From Halanaeroarchaeum sp. HSR-CO (GTDB lineage: Archaea > Halobacteriota > Halobacteria > Halobacteriales > Halobacteriaceae), in the NCBI RefSeq assembly GCF_024972755.1, contig NZ_CP087724.1, positions 2,542,001-2,606,000 on the forward strand: DNA of 64,000 bases, in the 5' to 3' direction. Of this stretch, positions 9,515 to 54,515 are shown one piece after another (the first letter of the stretch is position 1; each line of letters opens with the position of its first letter). The notes beneath the pieces were generated by a model. The model saw nothing but the letters and a program-made list of their open reading frames with translations, was not told the origin of the DNA and did not search any database. The translations under genes and the position numbers were made by a program.

Positions 9515-10234
9515 TCAATGTGCCCCTGTCGCCTCGCAGGCGGGGTCGAGACAGCGTGGGCCATCGGTGGTCTCGAAGGTCGGGAGGCCACACGCACAGG
9601 GATCGGAGACGATGCCGCTCGGGACGACGTGGGAGCGACCGCACTCCTCGCAGGTGGCCCGGAGCCCACGATTGCGTTCGATGGCGAGGTTGCCCTCGCA
9701 CGTCGGGCAGGTCCACCGCCCCGCGAAGCGGTCGCGCACGACCTCGTCGAGGGACTCGCAGGTCCGGTCCAGACAGACCTCGAAGTGGTCGCCGCGCTCC
9801 ACGGAGAGCGTCGGCAGCCCGCAGTCCTCGCAGGTGTCGTCGGTGATGGTCGCGTCCCGGGGGAGCGGGAACGAATCCGCACAGCCGATGCAGGTGACCG
9901 CGCCCCGTTCGCGGACGAGGGCCGCATCGCAGGTCGGACAGGTGCCGACCCGCGGGCCGGCGGGCGAGACGGTGAACTCCGCGTGGCCGACTGACTCGCC
10001 GGATAGCGAGAGGGAGTCACCACCCTTGCGGGCGCGGAGTCGGAAGCCGCCCTCGTCGCGTTCGACCTGGACCGCGTCGGCGCGCGTGAGCCACGCCGCC
10101 GGCTGGTAGCCACTCGCGTCGTGGACGAGCACGGTGTTGTCCGGCTTCACGAGCGCCACGACCTCGCCGTCCTGGGTCGCATCGTTCTCGGAGACGGTAC
10201 AGCGCCCGGCGTACACCCGGATGGATTGCTGCAT
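9515..10234 (-). CDS. NucS N-domain-like (DUF91-type) protein with zinc ribbons
   Basis: The 239-aa protein has two parts. Residues 1-90 (IRVYAGRCTVSENDATQDGE, then VVALVKPDNTVLVHDASGYQ and PAAWLTRAD) resemble the DNA-binding N-terminal domain of the mismatch endonuclease NucS/EndoMS. Residues 95-239 hold four or more Cys pairs (CPTCDAAL, CIGC, CEDCGLP, CPTCEGN, CEECG, CACGLP), i.e. several C4 zinc ribbons like those at the C-terminus of topoisomerase I. I see no NucS nuclease motif. DNA binding is likely; catalytic activity is not supported. It lies between hel308-like and endA in the same direction. Confidence 0.75.
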   Translation of the reverse strand: MQQSIRVYAGRCTVSENDATQDGEVVALVKPDNTVLVHDASGYQPAAWLTRADAVQVERDEGGFRLRARKGGDSLSLSGESVGHAEFTVSPAGPRVGTCPTCDAALVRERGAVTCIGCADSFPLPRDATITDDTCEDCGLPTLSVERGDHFEVCLDRTCESLDEVVRDRFAGRWTCPTCEGNLAIERNRGLRATCEECGRSHVVPSGIVSDPCACGLPTFETTDGPRCLDPACEATGAH

Positions 10235-10260
10235 GGGCCGCGGTGGGCCGGTCTCCGTAT

Positions 10261-12615
10261 CTAAAGGTTCGCCCGGGTCGCCGTCACCGCGACGACGCGC
10301 TCCTCGCGGACGGCGCGAAGCGGAAGGGTCGGGAAGGTCACCGTGACCGTGTATGCCAGTCGGTCGTCGGTGGCTCCGAACACGCCCACTGGAACGGTCG
10401 TCTCGTCGGTGAGATACGTATCGTCGCGGGTCATCTCGACCCCGTTGACCGTCACCCTCACCCCGACGCGCGCCCCGGCCCCCTCGTTCGTGACCGTCAC
10501 CTCGCGCATATCGTTGTCGCCGCGGTCGATGGCGTCGGGAAAGTCGCCCCAGTCGATCGCGATGGCCGGCAGGTCGTGGGCCTGCTCGAGGACGTTCTTC
10601 GCGACGCCCTCGGAGAGGCCAGCGTCGACGAGGCCCGTGATACCGGCGTCCCTGACCGATTCCGGATCCGTGATCCCACCCTGAGCGAGACGGTGTCCCC
10701 GGCCCGAGCCCACGCCGTCGAGCGCGGTGAGCCCCACCGCCTCCGGGGGGACGCCGGTCTCGATGCGCGCCTCCAGTCGAGCCGCCAGGTTCGCCGCTGC
10801 GGGCCGGTCGTAGCGGCCGAAGAACTCGCCGAGGGCCGCGACGAGACGGAGGGCGTTCTGCCGGATGACCCAGGCATCGGAACGCAGCTCCGGCGGGATG
10901 GACCCGTCCATGCTCCCGGTGAGGATGGCGTACACCTTTCGGGCGCCCGGTTCGAGGGTCTTCTCGCCCGAATCGAGGACGTCGTCGATGGCGTCGCGCT
11001 CGGCCTGTCGCGCGCTGACGCTGTCGAACTCGCTCGCCCGGGCCACCGCTCGCAGGACGTCGCGCTCGGTCGGGTCGGCCTCGGCGAGGTCGGCGAAGCG
11101 CTCGGCGGTGTCGAGGTGGAGGTAGTACGTCGAGGCGAGCACGCCCAACGTCGTCGGGGAGAGACCCAGGTCCTCGCCGGTCTCGATGAACCCGCGCTCG
11201 AGGAGGCCGTCCAGGATCGAGCGGACCCGTTCGCGGATCGACCCGTAGTCGTACGCGTCGGGGACGCTCTGGGCACGATGGTAGAAGAAGGTGGTCTCCA
11301 GCCAGTCCATCACGTCGTCCAGGCCGTGGATGGTCCCCATGGCAATCTCCGCGTTGAGGTGTTCGGCCAGGTCGTCGGCGAGACGCGATTCGATGGCCTT
11401 CCCGTCGCGAAGGAGACGGCGGTAGCGGTCGGCGTCCGCACCGTCACAGACCACCCAGCCGTAGCCCACGTCGTCGTAGCCGGGTCGGCCCGCCCGCCCG
11501 ATCATCTGGAGGACGTCGAGGGGGCTCATGTCGACCTCTCCCTCGAGGGGGTCGTGGAGTTTCGTATCACGGATGACCACACAGCGTGCGGGCAGGTTCA
11601 CGCCCCAGGCCAGCGTCGACGTGGAGAACAGCAGGTCGATCTGTCCCTGCTTGAACCACTCCTCGACGAGGTCCTTGTCGTTCTTCGAGAGCCCGGCGTG
11701 GTGGAAGGCGACGCCGTCGAGCACCGACTGGCGCAGCGTGGCGTTCTCCAGCGCCTGCGTCTCGGTGTGAAAGTCGTACTCCCCGCGTGTCGCGATGGGG
11801 ATGTCCCGCTCCGCGATCTCGTCTCTGGCCTTCTTCGCCGCCTGGACCGTGTCCTGGCGGGATGAGACGAACACGAGCGCCTGCCCGTCCTCCCGGAGGT
11901 GCGGTTCGGCGAGGTCCATCGCGGTGAACAGTCGCCGGTACTTGTCGGCGAAGGCGTTTTCTCCGTGCGTGTACGTCCGCACGCCCGCGTGGAGGTCGAC
12001 CGGTCGATACTCGTCGCCGAAGTCGAAGGTCGCCTCGCTCGGGGCGTCCAGCCAGGCCGCCACGTCGTCGACGTTCTTCATCGTCGCGGAGAGGGCGACG
12101 ATGCGGGGGTCGGCGAGCCGTCGGAGACGGGAGACGACGACCTCCAGGACGCTCCCCCGGGACGCCGAGTCCAGCAGGTGCACCTCGTCGATGACCACCA
12201 CGTCCACCGCCGTGACGAACGAGTAGCGCGGCGAGTCGTGCTTTCTGGTCGCCGAGTCGGCCTTCTCCGGGGTCATCACCAGCACGTCGGCCCGGGCGGC
12301 GCGTCGGGGGTTGAACTCCCGCTCGCCCGTGACGACGTACACCGAGTAGCCCAGGTCCTCGAAGCGTTCCCACTCGGATTCCTTCTCGTTGGTGAGCGCG
12401 CGCATCGGCGCGACGAACAGGGCGGTGCCGTCGTCGCGGAGCGCGTCCACGATGGCGAGTTCCGCGAGGGCGGTCTTCCCGCTCGCGGTGGGCGCGCTGG
12501 CGACGACGTTGGCGTCGGTCTCCAGCAATGCGGGCAGGGCCGCCCGTTGCATCGCGTTGAATTCCTCGAACGAAAACGCCGCGGCGAACTCCGGGACGAC
12601 CTCGGCGACCTCCAT
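10261..12615 (-). CDS. Hel308-like Ski2-family DNA helicase
   Basis: This 784-aa superfamily 2 helicase has Walker A APTASGKT at residues 41-48, motif II DEVH in VVVIDEVHLLD, motif III ALSATM, and motif VI QMIGRAGRPGYDD. These are followed by winged-helix, ratchet (Sec63-like) and helix-hairpin-helix regions (LTALDGVGSGRGHRLAQGG). The last 90 residues form an extra beta-rich domain (MREVTVTNEGAGARVGVRV). It is related to, but distinct from, canonical Hel308, fitting the second haloarchaeal paralogue. The ATG at 12615 gives MEVAEVVPEF; the upstream open frame is antisense to lipA and was excluded. Likely work: fork repair or recombination. Confidence 0.92.
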   Translation of the reverse strand: MEVAEVVPEFAAAFSFEEFNAMQRAALPALLETDANVVASAPTASGKTALAELAIVDALRDDGTALFVAPMRALTNEKESEWERFEDLGYSVYVVTGEREFNPRRAARADVLVMTPEKADSATRKHDSPRYSFVTAVDVVVIDEVHLLDSASRGSVLEVVVSRLRRLADPRIVALSATMKNVDDVAAWLDAPSEATFDFGDEYRPVDLHAGVRTYTHGENAFADKYRRLFTAMDLAEPHLREDGQALVFVSSRQDTVQAAKKARDEIAERDIPIATRGEYDFHTETQALENATLRQSVLDGVAFHHAGLSKNDKDLVEEWFKQGQIDLLFSTSTLAWGVNLPARCVVIRDTKLHDPLEGEVDMSPLDVLQMIGRAGRPGYDDVGYGWVVCDGADADRYRRLLRDGKAIESRLADDLAEHLNAEIAMGTIHGLDDVMDWLETTFFYHRAQSVPDAYDYGSIRERVRSILDGLLERGFIETGEDLGLSPTTLGVLASTYYLHLDTAERFADLAEADPTERDVLRAVARASEFDSVSARQAERDAIDDVLDSGEKTLEPGARKVYAILTGSMDGSIPPELRSDAWVIRQNALRLVAALGEFFGRYDRPAAANLAARLEARIETGVPPEAVGLTALDGVGSGRGHRLAQGGITDPESVRDAGITGLVDAGLSEGVAKNVLEQAHDLPAIAIDWGDFPDAIDRGDNDMREVTVTNEGAGARVGVRVTVNGVEMTRDDTYLTDETTVPVGVFGATDDRLAYTVTVTFPTLPLRAVREERVVAVTATRANL

Positions 12616-29625: not shown

Positions 29626-29698
29626 CTCAGGTTGGCGAACAGGCGACGGAGCGGTGGCGGTGTTTACACCTGCAAAGGGCAAGCAGCGATGCCGCCCT

Positions 29699-29987
29699 AT
29701 TCCCGGAACGGGCCGTCGCACTCCCGCCGTGTTCGTCCCGGGTCAGCTATCGAGGATACGCGTCGATGGCCGGGTTTCGGTATTTGAACCTTCGTGAAAA
29801 CGAGAGCCAACCGTCGAGCGGCGAGCATTCGCGACCCGAGCGGTCCGTCAGGACCCGGGAGGGTCGCGATTCGCCGCGCCGAAGGCGCGGTCGCCGAGGA
29901 CCCCCGTAGTGGGGTCCGACGGCGATTTTTCCCCACGTTTTTGCCGAGTGGGGTGGCGAAGCCACCCCACGCAGAGCAAAAAGTGGG
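29699..29987 (+). repeat. Intergenic structured repeat element, copy A
   Basis: This 289-bp element lies between the convergent leuS and the ornithine cyclodeaminase-family gene and is homologous to 53080-53388. Shared blocks are ATTCCCGGARCGGG at the left end, TTTCGGTATTTGAACCTTCG, GCATTCGCG, and a 61-bp right core with three mismatches. The plus strand folds into four hairpins: 29829-29869 (TCGCGACCC/GGGTCGCGA with inner GGTCC/GGACC), 29874-29890 (CCGCGCC/GGCGCGG), 29891-29925 (TCGCCG/CGGCGA with inner GGACCCC/GGGGTCC) and 29948-29970. Arms differ from copy B but pairing is kept. It could be a structured RNA gene, a bidirectional terminator or a non-coding mobile repeat. The rest of the spacer (29626-29698) shows nothing recognisable. 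Confidence 0.85.
29926..29987. terminator. Bidirectional terminator-like core of element A
   Basis: On the plus strand two T-tracts (29926-29930 and 29938-29942) follow GC-rich hairpins, suited to ending leuS-side transcripts. On the minus strand CCACTTTTTGC comes directly after the stop codon of the gene ending at 29990. Between them is a perfect 10-bp stem, GTGGGGTGGC-gaa-GCCACCCCAC. Confidence 0.65.
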
Positions 29988-29989
29988 TG

Positions 29990-30985
29990 TTAGACGCCCA
30001 GCAAGTCGAACTCGGTCCCGATGTCGTGTTCCTGTGCGTGTTCGTAGACGACGTGGGCCGCGGCGACGTCCTGGATGGCGAGGCCCGTGCTGTCGAAGAC
30101 GGTGATACCGTCCTCGTCCGTCCGGCCAGCCGTCTCACCAGCGGCGACGGCACCGATCTCGCCGTACAGGTCGGCGTCGTCGAGGACGCCCTCGCTCCAG
30201 GGAACGTTGATCTCACCGGAGTGGGTACACTGCTCGTAGTTGTCGATGACGAGTTTGGCATCGAGGAGGAGCTCGTCGGCCAGTTCGTGCTTGCCCTCCG
30301 CGTCGGCACCCATGGCGTTGATATGGGTACGCTCGCCGACGTCCTCCAGCGAGACGATTGGCGATTCGACCGGCGTGACCGTCGAGAGGACGTCGCAGTG
30401 GCCGGCCTCGCTGACGGTGCCCTCCCGAACCGTGAACTCCTCGTCGTACTCGTCGATGAACGCCTGGACGGCCTCGGGGTCGACGTCCGAAACGACGACC
30501 TCTTCGATGTCCCGGACCTGTGAGATGGCCTCGAGCTGTGTGTGAGCCTGCTCCCCGGCCCCGATGATTCCGAGCGACCGCGCGTCTTCGACCGCGAGGT
30601 GGTCCGTCGCCACGCCCGCCGCGGCGCCTGTACGTTTCTTGGTGAGGACGGTCCCGTCCATGATGGCGAGTGGATAGGCAGTCTCCGGATCGCTGTAGAT
30701 GACCGTTCCCATGACCGTCGGCAGGTCGTGATCGTCGGGATTGTCCGGGTGGACGTTGACCCACTTGATGCCGGCGGCGTCCCAGTCCGTCGCGTCGAGG
30801 TACGCGGGCATCGACCGGAAATCACCGTTGTACTGCGGCAGGTCGATGTACGATTTCGGCGGCATCTGCGCGTCCTCGCGAGCATAGGCGACGAAGGCGT
30901 CCTCGAGGGCGGCGATGAGTTCGGCCATCGGCATCTCTGCATCGACTTCCTGACTCGCGAGTAGTAGCGTGGAGCGGTCGTCCAT
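29990..30985 (-). CDS. Ornithine cyclodeaminase / alanine dehydrogenase family protein
   Basis: This 331-aa NAD-dependent enzyme belongs to the mu-crystallin family. Visible are the MPPKSYIDLP substrate-lysine region, GIKWVNVHPDNP, the Rossmann motif LGIIGAGEQAHTQLEAI and the catalytic-Asp segment VFDSTGLAIQDVAAA. Archaeal members include alanine dehydrogenases (Archaeoglobus type) as well as ornithine cyclodeaminases; the sequence alone does not decide between them. It is a single gene with a TATA box at 31010-31018. Its stop codon is 2 bp from repeat element A, which probably ends its transcript. Confidence 0.88.
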   Translation of the reverse strand: MDDRSTLLLASQEVDAEMPMAELIAALEDAFVAYAREDAQMPPKSYIDLPQYNGDFRSMPAYLDATDWDAAGIKWVNVHPDNPDDHDLPTVMGTVIYSDPETAYPLAIMDGTVLTKKRTGAAAGVATDHLAVEDARSLGIIGAGEQAHTQLEAISQVRDIEEVVVSDVDPEAVQAFIDEYDEEFTVREGTVSEAGHCDVLSTVTPVESPIVSLEDVGERTHINAMGADAEGKHELADELLLDAKLVIDNYEQCTHSGEINVPWSEGVLDDADLYGEIGAVAAGETAGRTDEDGITVFDSTGLAIQDVAAAHVVYEHAQEHDIGTEFDLLGV

Positions 30986-37107: not shown

Positions 37108-37280
37108 ACCCCGAGAGAGTGGGGGCGCGACAAAATGGCTTCTGATACTCACAGGGGTGACGAGGGTTCATATACAGAGACCGGTCCAGGCCCGCACATC
37201 GTGGACTGATCGACGCGGGACGAACACGGCGGGAGTGCGGTGCACCGTCTCGCGATGAGCGGAGTGGTCGATGGCGACCA

Positions 37281-52978: not shown

Positions 52979-53079
52979 AGGCGAGCAGGTGGTCGGGGAG
53001 GTGGCCGCAGGCCAGCTCCAAATGTGCGAACGGCAAAGCCGCGAGCAGGGTGACGCCGGCAGGAGGCCCGAACACGTTC

Positions 53080-53388
53080 ATTCCCGGAGCGGGTGACCAC
53101 GCTCCCGCCGAGTTCGCTCCGGGCCGGGTGTTACACCATAGCCGCGGTTGGTTCGATTTCGGTATTTGAACCTTCGCACTACTGATCCATTTTCAATTTC
53201 CGGACAAGCATTCGCGCACCGAGGGGCTCGAAGAGCCCGGAAGGTGCGCGATTCACCGCTCGCGTCAGCGAGCGGTAGCGCGGACGGACCACCGCGTCGC
53301 GAAGCGACGCGACGGGAGTCCGCGCGCTTTTTCCCCAAGTTTTTGCCGAGTGGGGTGGCGGAGCCACCCCACGCAGCGCAAAAAGTGG
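53080..53388 (+). repeat. Intergenic structured repeat element, copy B
   Basis: This 309-bp homologue of 29699-29987 lies between convergent ahcY and cdc6. It has the same block order: ATTCCCGGAGCGGG, TTTCGGTATTTGAACCTTCG, GCATTCGCG, then hairpins 53212-53251 (TCGCGCACC/GGTGCGCGA, inner GGGCTC/GAGCCC), 53255-53276 (ACCGCTCGC/GCGAGCGGT), 53278-53325 (GCGCGGAC/GTCCGCGC, inner CGCGTCGC/GCGACGCG), and the conserved core. The base pairs differ from copy A while the pairing is kept. The first 100 bp of this 412-bp spacer (52979-53079) show nothing recognisable. Confidence 0.85.
53328..53388. terminator. Bidirectional terminator-like core of element B
   Basis: Plus-strand T-tracts (53328-53332 and 53340-53344) follow a GC-rich hairpin, and the minus strand has CCACTTTTTGC right after the cdc6 stop codon. 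The 10-bp stem GTGGGGTGGC/GCCACCCCAC is identical to copy A; only the loop changes (gaa to gga). Confidence 0.65.
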
Positions 53389-53390
53389 TT

Positions 53391-54515
53391 TTACAGCTGA
53401 TCGAGTACCGCGTCCTCGTCGTGGGCCAGCCGAAGAGTCCGCGACCGGCCGCGACCCTCCAGTTGCTCGTACTCGGCCTCGATGATGCCGAGTTTGTCGA
53501 GTTTGTTGACGAGTTCGGTATACCGCGTGTAGCCCAGGTCCGTTCGCTCGTGGAAGGTGTCGTAGACGTCGCCGGCGCGCTGATCGCCGTGCTCGGCGAC
53601 GACCTCGACGAGCGTCTGCTCGGTCTCGGAGAGCGACCGGAGGTTCCGCGAGAGGTGGACGTGTTTGGCCTCGTCGAAGGCGTCCTCGACGTCCTGTGGT
53701 TCGACGGTGCGACTCGCGCGCATCTCGGCGTTGAGACCGGCACGGCGGAGCAAGTCGATGCCGACGCGCAGATCGCCGGTTTCGGCGGTGAGTTCGGCGA
53801 CGCGGTCGGTGACCGTCGTCGGCACCGCCCCCTCCTGGAAGCCCGCGTCGATGCGGTCCTGGAGGATGTCGACGATCTCGGTGACGTCGTAGACCGGAAA
53901 GTAGGCCTCCTCCGGCCGGAAGACGCTCTGGACGCGGCCGTCGAGGTCGTCGATGACGTCGAGGTCGAGGTCCGAGGAGACCACGATGACGCCGATCTTG
54001 GTCCCCGGGTGGGCTTCGTGGGCGCGTAACAACGAGTAGAGCGTGTCGGAGGCCTCGCTCTCGTAGAACAGGTAGTTGACGTCGTCGAGGGCGACAACCA
54101 GCACCTCCTCGTCGTCGACCAGCGAATCGGCGATCTGCCCGAAGAGCTTCTTGAAGGAGATGCCCGAAGAGGGGGGTTCGTACTCGAAGAGCGCCTCGAA
54201 GATGCGCGAGAACACCGAGTAGCGCGTCGAGTCGACCTGGCAGTTGACGCGGACCGCCCGCACACCTGGCTGGTGGTCGAGTTCGGCGAAGACCTTCTGG
54301 ATCGCGGTCGTCTTGCCCGTTCCGGGTGGACCCCGGACCATCACGTTGAGCGGGCGCGACCCACGGACCGCGGGCCGGAGCGCGTACTTCAGGGTCTCGA
54401 GTTGTGACTCGCGGTGGCGAAATATCTCCGGGACGTAGTCGATCTCGAGGACGTGCTCGTCGCGGAACACCGACTCGTCCCAGGACAACATTCCCCCATC
54501 CGGGTCGTCGGCCAT
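53391..54515 (-). CDS. cdc6: Orc1/Cdc6-type replication initiator
   Basis: This 374-aa AAA+ protein has Walker A VRGPPGTGKTTAIQ, Walker B VVALDDVNYLFYE, sensor 1 in VIVVSSDLDLD and a C-terminal winged helix (ERTDLGYTRYTELVNKLDKL). The ATG at 54515 (MADDPDGGMLSWDES) is supported by a TATA-like GTTAAGTAG about 22-30 bp upstream. An alternative ATG at 54491 would remove eight residues. I found no clear ORB repeats in the short flanks, so it may be one of several Orc paralogues, not tied to an origin here. Confidence 0.93.
   Translation of the reverse strand: MADDPDGGMLSWDESVFRDEHVLEIDYVPEIFRHRESQLETLKYALRPAVRGSRPLNVMVRGPPGTGKTTAIQKVFAELDHQPGVRAVRVNCQVDSTRYSVFSRIFEALFEYEPPSSGISFKKLFGQIADSLVDDEEVLVVALDDVNYLFYESEASDTLYSLLRAHEAHPGTKIGVIVVSSDLDLDVIDDLDGRVQSVFRPEEAYFPVYDVTEIVDILQDRIDAGFQEGAVPTTVTDRVAELTAETGDLRVGIDLLRRAGLNAEMRASRTVEPQDVEDAFDEAKHVHLSRNLRSLSETEQTLVEVVAEHGDQRAGDVYDTFHERTDLGYTRYTELVNKLDKLGIIEAEYEQLEGRGRSRTLRLAHDEDAVLDQL

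Follow-up and report, generated by a model that had tools for sequence, protein, structure and literature searches.

A hairpin block and a divergently read, predicted small RNA share an interval between convergent haloarchaeal genes

The analysis of a 64,000-nt stretch of Halanaeroarchaeum sp. HSR-CO DNA (the window) points to an interval made of two different elements: a block of four hairpins on the plus strand (module 2) and, on the minus strand, a predicted small RNA (module 1). Taken as a whole, this is the explanation that we favour, with modest confidence. Both copies that a sequence-only reading had described are confirmed, at 29699-29987 (copy A) and 53080-53388 (copy B); they share the same block order and a 61-bp core that is 95% identical (three mismatches), and the hairpin arms quoted at that time were found in the sequence and are complementary. 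Searched as a 22-mer with up to three mismatches, TTTCGGTATTTGAACCTTCG occurs twice in the window versus never in 100 shuffles. The flanking genes are convergent in each case, with LeuRS (+) and ornithine cyclodeaminase (-) around copy A and AdoHcyase (+) and Cdc6/Orc (-) around copy B. A 311-nt interval finds 12 matching places in the genome and eight in the congener, mostly partial, and it is because the interval is matched mostly in pieces that we split it into two separable modules. The original bounds cut the second of them, since the predicted minus-strand RNA reaches 29634 in copy A and 52980 in copy B. The idea of a single element restricted to two copies does not survive either: the hairpin block recurs with at least 12 to 44 model matches (E ≤ 1e-4) in each of five genomes, this one and four further ones. 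A blastn search of element A against plasmids gave no match.

On the plus strand, module 2 reads AGCAT-P4-RTTCACC-P3-P2-TTTTTC-P1, and its P1 end (TTTTTGC...GCAAAAA) adjoins the stop codon of the minus-strand gene. Its features in the window are the following.

29823..29986, plus strand: module 2, copy A (P4-P3-P2-T5C-P1); match to covariance model R1 of 172 bits, in the model seed
29829..29869, plus strand: P4 hairpin, copy A, outer arms 29829-29837 / 29861-29869; helix 1 of alignment A4, 9/9 pairs changed on both sides
29874..29890, plus strand: P3 hairpin, copy A; helix 3 of A4, 6/6 pairs changed on both sides
29891..29925, plus strand: P2 hairpin, copy A, directly before the T-run; helix 4 of A4, 14/14 pairs changed on both sides, with pairing in 79.8% of cells
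29926..29931, plus strand: TTTTTC run, copy A, following P2; letter for letter the T5C terminator assayed in Haloferax volcanii (excerpts of PMC7237163)
29938..29982, plus strand: P1, copy A, TTTTTGC / GCAAAAA stem with a T-run on both strands and an apical hairpin at 29948-29970; helices 5-6 of A4
29990-29992, minus strand: stop codon TAA of the ornithine cyclodeaminase gene, adjoining module 2 copy A
53206..53388, plus strand: module 2, copy B; R1 match of 125 bits, outside the seed
53328..53333, plus strand: TTTTTC run, copy B
53391-53393, minus strand: stop codon TAA of the Cdc6/Orc gene, adjoining module 2 copy B

The R1 model was built from 17 hand-picked copies, its seed alignment leaving out L009, L002, L024 and L047. 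Copies A and B are the only ones in the window that score well (E 2e-43 and 4e-31), the next best match standing at E 0.05. At E ≤ 0.1, R1 finds at least 20 matches in this genome and at least 18 in the congener (at least 16 and at least 12 at 1e-4), and at E ≤ 1e-4 it finds at least 44 in genome G018, at least 29 in G011 and at least 27 in G022. Across the order, 82 of 117 genomes carry one match or more at 1e-4; among the matches listed, the best scores outside the family stay below 90 bits versus up to 172 bits inside it. The covariance model over many copies, proposed as a check of the initial reading, upholds the covariation in 106 distinct hairpin-block copies: 87.1% of the cells hold standard pairs, 45 of the 46 pairs changed on both sides, and the covariation score is 0.305 versus 0.031-0.047 for slid partners, a value reached by none of 500 shuffles. 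These figures come from alignment A4, which was fitted to the R1 structure and thereby favours pairing. The outermost P1 pairs are weak, with 75, 43 and 91 of 102 cells paired.

Such covariation had been taken as a mark of selection on RNA or cruciform structure. Strong as it is, it belongs in module 2 to hairpins that carry little RNA signature. Summed over all helices, GU/UG pairs number 93 and AC/CA mismatches 70, which is not the clear G-U excess of a structured RNA, against 46 to 2 in the stem of module 1 (Fisher p 7e-8 overall, and 5e-4 for P4b+P3, where the counts are 9 versus 7). The balance is uneven between helices, with G-U to A-C counts of 20-11 in P4a, 3-4 in P4b, 6-3 in P3, 28-43 in P2, 15-0 in P1 and 19-7 in inner P1: P1 (with its plus-strand T-run), P4a and inner P1 lean to G-U and P2 leans the opposite way. 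The sequence-only reading inclined to a single plus-strand structured RNA or riboregulator covering the whole element, and this we regard as very unlikely. All four hairpins do covary strongly, three helices have more G-U than A-C, and plus-strand mismatches are purine-rich (AG/GA 247 versus CU/UC 50), an excess that designates plus as the strand whose fold matters. The loops agree on the strand: with one hairpin allowed to count in several registers, triloops are GNA in 169 of 285 cases and TNC in 34, and the 70 tetraloops include 34 GNNA versus a single TNNC. When stems of at least eight pairs are each counted once, GNA and TNC make up 60 and 24 of 117 triloops; outside the elements they are equal (22 and 22 of 95). 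However, the tetraloops are GNYA (31) and not GNRA (3), UNCG is absent, and no plus-strand TATA box was recognised by eye upstream of P4. Together with the G-U to A-C counts, these features speak against the plain RNA reading of the hairpin block, and the label of structured RNA is better suited to the minus-strand half of the interval.

Module 2 sits at gene ends. With gene ends around both modules called by a GC3-based script and not taken from annotation, a convergent minus-strand gene is recognised for 81 of the 106 copies, and for 73 of them the stop codon of that gene is located -2 to +6 nt from the block end. Only 75 of the 106 have a recognisable plus-strand gene that terminates on their left side. 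The simplest reason for this tight apposition would be that superfluous DNA separating a functional block from the stop codon has been deleted. Between some gene pairs, two blocks stand back to back. The 3' end of ocd was inspected in 53 of 80 named loci, and the block is seen there by eye in Halobacterium sp. CBA1126, H. bonnevillei, TGN-42-S1 and KA-4, of which the script flagged only CBA1126 and TGN-42-S1; within the same inspected set no block was seen in H. salinarum DSM 3754, where a same-direction start codon seems to come next, in the two Halarchaeum loci or in the other genera.

Several further places deserve mention in their own right. Two head-to-head copies lie between genes read as nusA and rps12 (G000:C1:809179-809616; L005, L018, L029), and the same site holds module 2 in five other compared genomes with very different arms. 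In L020 and L043, module 2 adjoins, as judged by eye, the 3' end of a tRNA gene or a duplicated tRNA 3' fragment. In another haloarchaeal family, L049 and L050 show a P1-like hairpin with GGAGGAGTGCTTTT upstream, beside stop codons, and are perhaps members of a wider class of gene-end elements.

Two further explanations of the hairpin block have to be weighed, the first of which is a REP- or MITE-like mobile element that spreads via single-stranded hairpins. DNA of the form C(GNA)G or C(GNNA)G folds into stable mini-hairpins, with which the loops agree, and the copies are dispersed, mostly at gene ends and often as inverted pairs, with the numbers per genome given above. Best paralogs (mean identity 76%) are closer than the 47 pairs of orthologous copies (66.6%), and Y1 transposases occur in seven of the eight genomes inspected, as a presence at genome level. 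Nevertheless, no Y1 transposase was found in G022 despite its 27 or more matches, the closest paralog pair within a genome is only 93% identical among the copies compared, so that near-identical paralogs are missing, and the same gene ends (ocd, nusA/rps12 and others) are occupied across genera, although the orthologous copies are barely closer to each other than unrelated copies from different genomes (62.8%). A clean empty site of the same gene pair was not encountered among the 53 of 80 named ocd loci inspected. The earlier suggestion of a non-coding mobile element is weakened for the hairpin block by its conserved positions, the want of near-identical paralogs and the case of G022, and we rate it as unlikely. 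We give similarly low weight to the second explanation, in which the covariation is the unselected product of template-switch (quasi-palindrome) repair. Nearly pure Watson-Crick pairing, the swapping of whole arms between orthologous copies and the extra hairpins within loops are what such repair would leave, but linkers such as GCATYCG and RTTCACC reappear from copy to copy despite the turnover of the arms, as does the mismatched internal loop GAGY/CGGRA, pure palindrome correction should remove mismatches, and placement at stop codons argues against an unselected origin.

As G-U pairs are scarce and little above A-C, we read module 2 instead as a terminator of convergent genes whose palindromes turn over at the DNA level, most of its covariation being DNA-level as we read it, with the reservation that G-U prevails in some helices. 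Followed along the plus strand, P2 leads into TTTTTC in copy A as in copy B, which is the layout of an intrinsic terminator, namely a GC-rich hairpin followed by a T-run at a gene end; in excerpts of PMC7237163, TTTTTC gives 95% termination in a Haloferax reporter. A polymerase arriving from the facing gene would therefore stop just before the opposing stop codon. After P2, several copies carry TTTTGG and not TTTTTC. In the named copies L208 and L243, a second T-run on the stop-proximal side would serve the other direction of transcription. Overall, P4, P3 and P2 leading into TTTTTC, followed by the stem with a T-run on both strands, are predicted to halt the transcripts of the facing gene before they turn antisense, while the block would mark the end of the minus-strand gene and its arms would be rewritten as palindromes at the DNA level. 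If module 2 is a terminator, it illustrates how compact archaeal genomes stop convergent transcription from entering the facing gene. It also looks like a natural case of palindrome covariation at the DNA level, which calls for caution in RNA gene finding based on covariation.

The other half of the interval is of a different nature. The block shared by the two copies had been suspected to be a promoter or recognition site; it is indeed promoter-like, but it serves the minus strand and is directed away from the hairpins. As a plus-strand promoter, TTTCGGTATTTGAACC is discarded: on the minus strand it is TTCAAATA, with a start at a fixed distance. The features of module 1 in the window are the following.

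29634..29757, minus strand: module 1, copy A, RNA predicted to begin at the leaderless start position and to extend to the 3' motif CTGTTCGCC; match to model R2 of 93 bits at 29691-29796, in the seed
29781..29788, minus strand: TATA-like box TTCAAATA, copy A, within the shared block; box conserved in 91 copies
29702..29742, minus strand: module 1 stem, copy A, arms 29734-29742 / 29702-29710
29643..29719, minus strand: pseudoknot, copy A, GCGACGG (29713-29719) with CCGTCGC (29643-29649)
52980..53139, minus strand: module 1, copy B, predicted RNA from ATG GTG TAA to CTGCTCGCC; R2 match of 108 bits at 53072-53178, in the seed
53131..53139, minus strand: start-X-stop mini-ORF of copy B, ATG GTG TAA
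53163..53170, minus strand: TATA-like box TTCAAATA, copy B
53083..53123, minus strand: module 1 stem, copy B, arms 53115-53123 / 53083-53091
52989..53100, minus strand: pseudoknot, copy B, GTGGTC (53095-53100) with GACCAC (52989-52994)
37159..37265, plus strand: third module 1 copy (L171), R2 match of 87.6 bits, with ATC GTG GAC TGA at the start position

No module 2 match adjoins the third copy, which stands alone upstream of a gene that perhaps encodes a tyrosyl-tRNA synthetase (start read by eye). A weak and shortened match (28 bits) lies at 10194-10273 on the minus strand.

R2 was trained on 16 module 1 copies, most of which carry the start-X-stop frame discussed below. At E ≤ 0.001 it finds at least 26, 19, 20 and 11 matches in four genomes, and at E ≤ 1e-5 module 1 is present in 54 of 117 genomes of the order, in 24 of 48 genera. 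In 47 of 114 copies, the 120 nt that precede the TATA box contain CGRATGC, a signature of module 2. In 91 distinct copies, 98.3% of the stem cells are paired and the covariation score is 0.705 versus 0.044-0.076 for slid partners, with none of 500 shuffles reaching it; all eight pairs changed on both sides, a count that 45 of the 500 shuffles also attain. Covarying pairs with tolerance of G-U, as expected from a structured RNA gene, are thus found here, and the stem resembles RNA, with a reading direction that leads away from the hairpin block. A promoter of its own is also recognised in the sequence in the form of a TATA box and a GGRACCA box, and long ORFs placed behind the same promoter start at an equal distance. 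The minimum free energies of three module 1 RNAs are no better than those of shuffles (z 1.24, -1.39 and -0.07) with a method that cannot form the pseudoknot. Among the 4227 Rfam families, only 16S rRNA matched the window above its curated score; element A at E ≤ 5 gave four matches, all far below the cut-offs, and seven module 1 loci at E ≤ 1 gave two, both below.

Besides the stem, module 1 shows a long-range pairing in which the end of the loop pairs with the bases immediately 5' of a 3' motif, CTGYNNGC. Of 114 copies, 101 have the motif within 150 nt. Runs of at least six pairs, which make up the pseudoknot, occur at 60 of these 101 sites, whereas 300 permutations of the partners give 10.8 such sites on average and 20 at most; there are 36 distinct arm pairs. 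In 55 of the 56 cases where the 3' arm directly precedes CTG, the 5' arm has the same start position. The stop codon of an opposing gene is recognised within 120 nt of the 3' motif at 70 of the 101 sites and at -3 to +12 nt in 42. TTTT follows within 60 nt of the motif in only eight of the 101, and the 3' end of the RNA is a predicted one.

The TTCAARTA-N7-GGRACCA promoter is also seen before protein genes (L341, L343, L345, L358, L376, L386, L389, L401). The proteins behind it include the NucS endonuclease in several genomes, a recurring VPDSVAFGDLARAAYCPRQLYY protein without Pfam match and a ParA/MinD protein, and these genes perhaps form a DNA-repair regulon.

The most distinctive feature of module 1 is at its 5' end. 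Copy B begins with ATG GTG TAA, a trait of most family members, so that the initial statement that no open frame is conserved holds for ordinary ORFs only. The frame was sought as ATG or GTG, one codon and a stop, 31 nt beyond the initial T of the TATA box, which is where genes with the same promoter start. A two-codon minigene layout, with start, one codon and stop at a plausible initiation site, is present in copy B and missing from copy A, which has ATC at the start position and no mini-ORF. Among the 70 R2 matches that were read in four genomes (out of 76, six weak ones being left out), 51 carry start-X-stop, not counting L171, whose offset differs. The remaining 19 comprise four gene starts, one frame that is one codon longer (L330), one shifted frame (L301) and 13 sequences without start codon; 11 of these 13 have ATC (copy A included), and in four a stop persists at codon 3, so that start and stop do not always go together. 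Across the order, the frame is found at 24 of 26 loci, 18 of 19 in other families and six of seven in the own family. Over 114 module 1 copies the proportion is 101, a figure that is inflated because 37 copies were chosen after the frame had been seen and 16 weak matches were omitted; it is 64 of 77 without the copies picked for their frame. These 114 consist of 91 plus 23 copies, and the 16 matches omitted, out of 40 weaker ones, include eight with the frame, four gene starts and four with neither. By offset, the 101 frames divide into 96 at 31 nt, four at 30 and one at 26, the latter two being accepted as well.

A promoter-only search (TATA plus GGRACCA boxes), which is a check independent of R2, returned 80 matches spread over 26 genomes; with the pattern reversed, it returned none. 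At 63 of the 70 distinct sites that were read from these matches, ATG or GTG stands at +31; of these 63 frames, 48 end at codon 3 and one at codon 4, 13 run for 60 codons without a stop and one is the first of a tandem pair or repeat overlap. Long ORFs at this position include NucS (PF21003), ParA-like and TctA-like proteins. Stop triplets occur 6 nt on in 48 of the 63 sites and 5 or 7 nt on in none. From the stop codon to the stem, the spacer in the 101 frames measures 7 nt (56 copies), 6 nt (24), 8 nt (11), 5 nt (9) or 4 nt (1).

Three side observations concern the frame. A module 1 copy with an extra in-frame codon reads GTG ACC ACC TGA (L351 / G011:C1:364896); two IMG/VR contigs (L434, L435) match the pattern of promoter and start-X-stop; and the MAG Halobacteriales archaeon QH_7_65_31, with GTG ACG TAG, is the sole match among 80 named ocd loci.

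The conserved RTGNNNTRA could be a DNA motif, such as an initiator or an operator half-site, and not a translated frame. The copies share descent, GTGACCTGA is common in Halobacterium (the middle codon is ACC in 27 of 48), and the GGRACCA box shows that the promoter holds additional DNA motifs. Yet the middle codon is of 17 kinds among the R2 matches and 14 in the promoter-only set, with G or C at its end in 51 of 52 and 46 of 48 cases; three stop codons and two start codons are in use; the 13 same-promoter sites that have no stop in 60 codons start at that very position; and where indels have occurred, the motif shifts as a unit (L355 and L400 by eye; L414, L420, L427). We consequently find the DNA-motif explanation rather doubtful. 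A stronger contender, although it falls somewhat short of being probable, is that the mini-ORF acts as a guard: a leaderless RNA that starts with RTG would need an early stop so that ribosomes spare the pseudoknot. Indeed, 51 of the 53 non-gene R2 matches with a start codon have the stop, against four of the 13 without one. The persistence of the stop in some members that lack a start codon does not fit well with a guard, and the tight spacing of 4 to 8 nt to the stem goes beyond its apparent need.

A leaderless start, a two-codon frame and a knot 4 to 8 nt past the stop are the geometry of a ribosome that halts or terminates against a structure. For module 1 transcription, translation of the mini-ORF and a cellular role, and likewise for termination at module 2, we infer from the sequence the following scheme. 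The TATA box TTCAAATA and the conserved GGRACCA-like box would drive a leaderless RNA from the minus strand, made in most copies of a start codon, one codon and a stop codon, then of a stem with pseudoknot 4 to 8 nt on, and of the 3' motif CUGYNNGC, which often adjoins the stop codon of the other convergent gene. Ribosomes would enter at the leaderless start and end translation after two codons; by then departing or pausing at the pseudoknot, they would allow the RNA to stay folded while being ribosome-marked or ribosome-capped. This load-and-terminate view is the one that we hold most likely for module 1, although the sequence by itself does not set it apart from a plainer one, in which the stop simply clears the RNA of ribosomes. 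We propose more tentatively, as a possibility that we do not consider probable, that module 1 represents order-wide ribosome-capturing RNAs, on which a terminating ribosome would be pressed against the knot; they may titrate, store or report on ribosomes or use a parked one as a 5' cap, and would act as a hub of numerous near-redundant copies located at convergent gene ends beside the DNA terminator blocks. If it is transcribed as predicted, module 1 is a multi-copy haloarchaeal RNA family with, in most copies, a 5' start-X-stop at a fixed distance from a pseudoknot, and offers a testable reason why some archaeal small RNAs that encode no protein are found on ribosomes.

In the open-access literature, as far as titles and abstract openings go, we found no report of the element or of an archaeal RNA family with start-X-stop. 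Each module nonetheless has relatives among known systems. REP/BIME elements are extragenic, palindromic and multi-copy, often in inverted pairs at gene 3' ends, and module 2 resembles them in being palindromic, numerous and mostly located at gene ends. Unlike them, it is longer and multi-hairpin, and its positions are conserved across genera; no Y1 (RAYT) transposase was found in the copy-rich G022, and no near-identical paralogs were seen among the copies compared. Module 2 is also similar to the intrinsic terminators of Haloferax volcanii, where, in excerpts of PMC7237163, TTTTTC follows a GC-rich hairpin at gene ends, but it differs by its size of about 165 nt, its four ordered hairpins, its conserved linkers and its location beside the stop codon of the opposing gene.

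For module 1, the closest formal parallel is the two-codon minigene, of which lambda bar is an example. Bacterial cases such as axe-txe mg2 and EHEC LEE1 have the form ATG-NNN-stop with a variable middle codon, regulate translation and can be toxic via the release of peptidyl-tRNA; according to excerpts of the same source, they are located within genes or in the leaders of mRNAs and rely on Shine-Dalgarno sites (PMC8708949). By contrast, the frame of module 1 is leaderless, opens a predicted non-coding RNA 4 to 8 nt before a pseudoknot and recurs with at least 11 to 26 matches per genome in four genomes. Haloferax sRNAs with ribosome occupancy and no coding potential, as described in excerpts of PMC12482152, are likened to module 1 by their description only. 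The sotRNA and omega-RNA of IS200/IS605 are haloarchaeal non-coding RNAs as well (PMC12558985), but the neighbours in the window are LeuRS, ornithine cyclodeaminase, AdoHcyase and Cdc6 and not tnpB, and module 1 has its own predicted promoter and start-X-stop.
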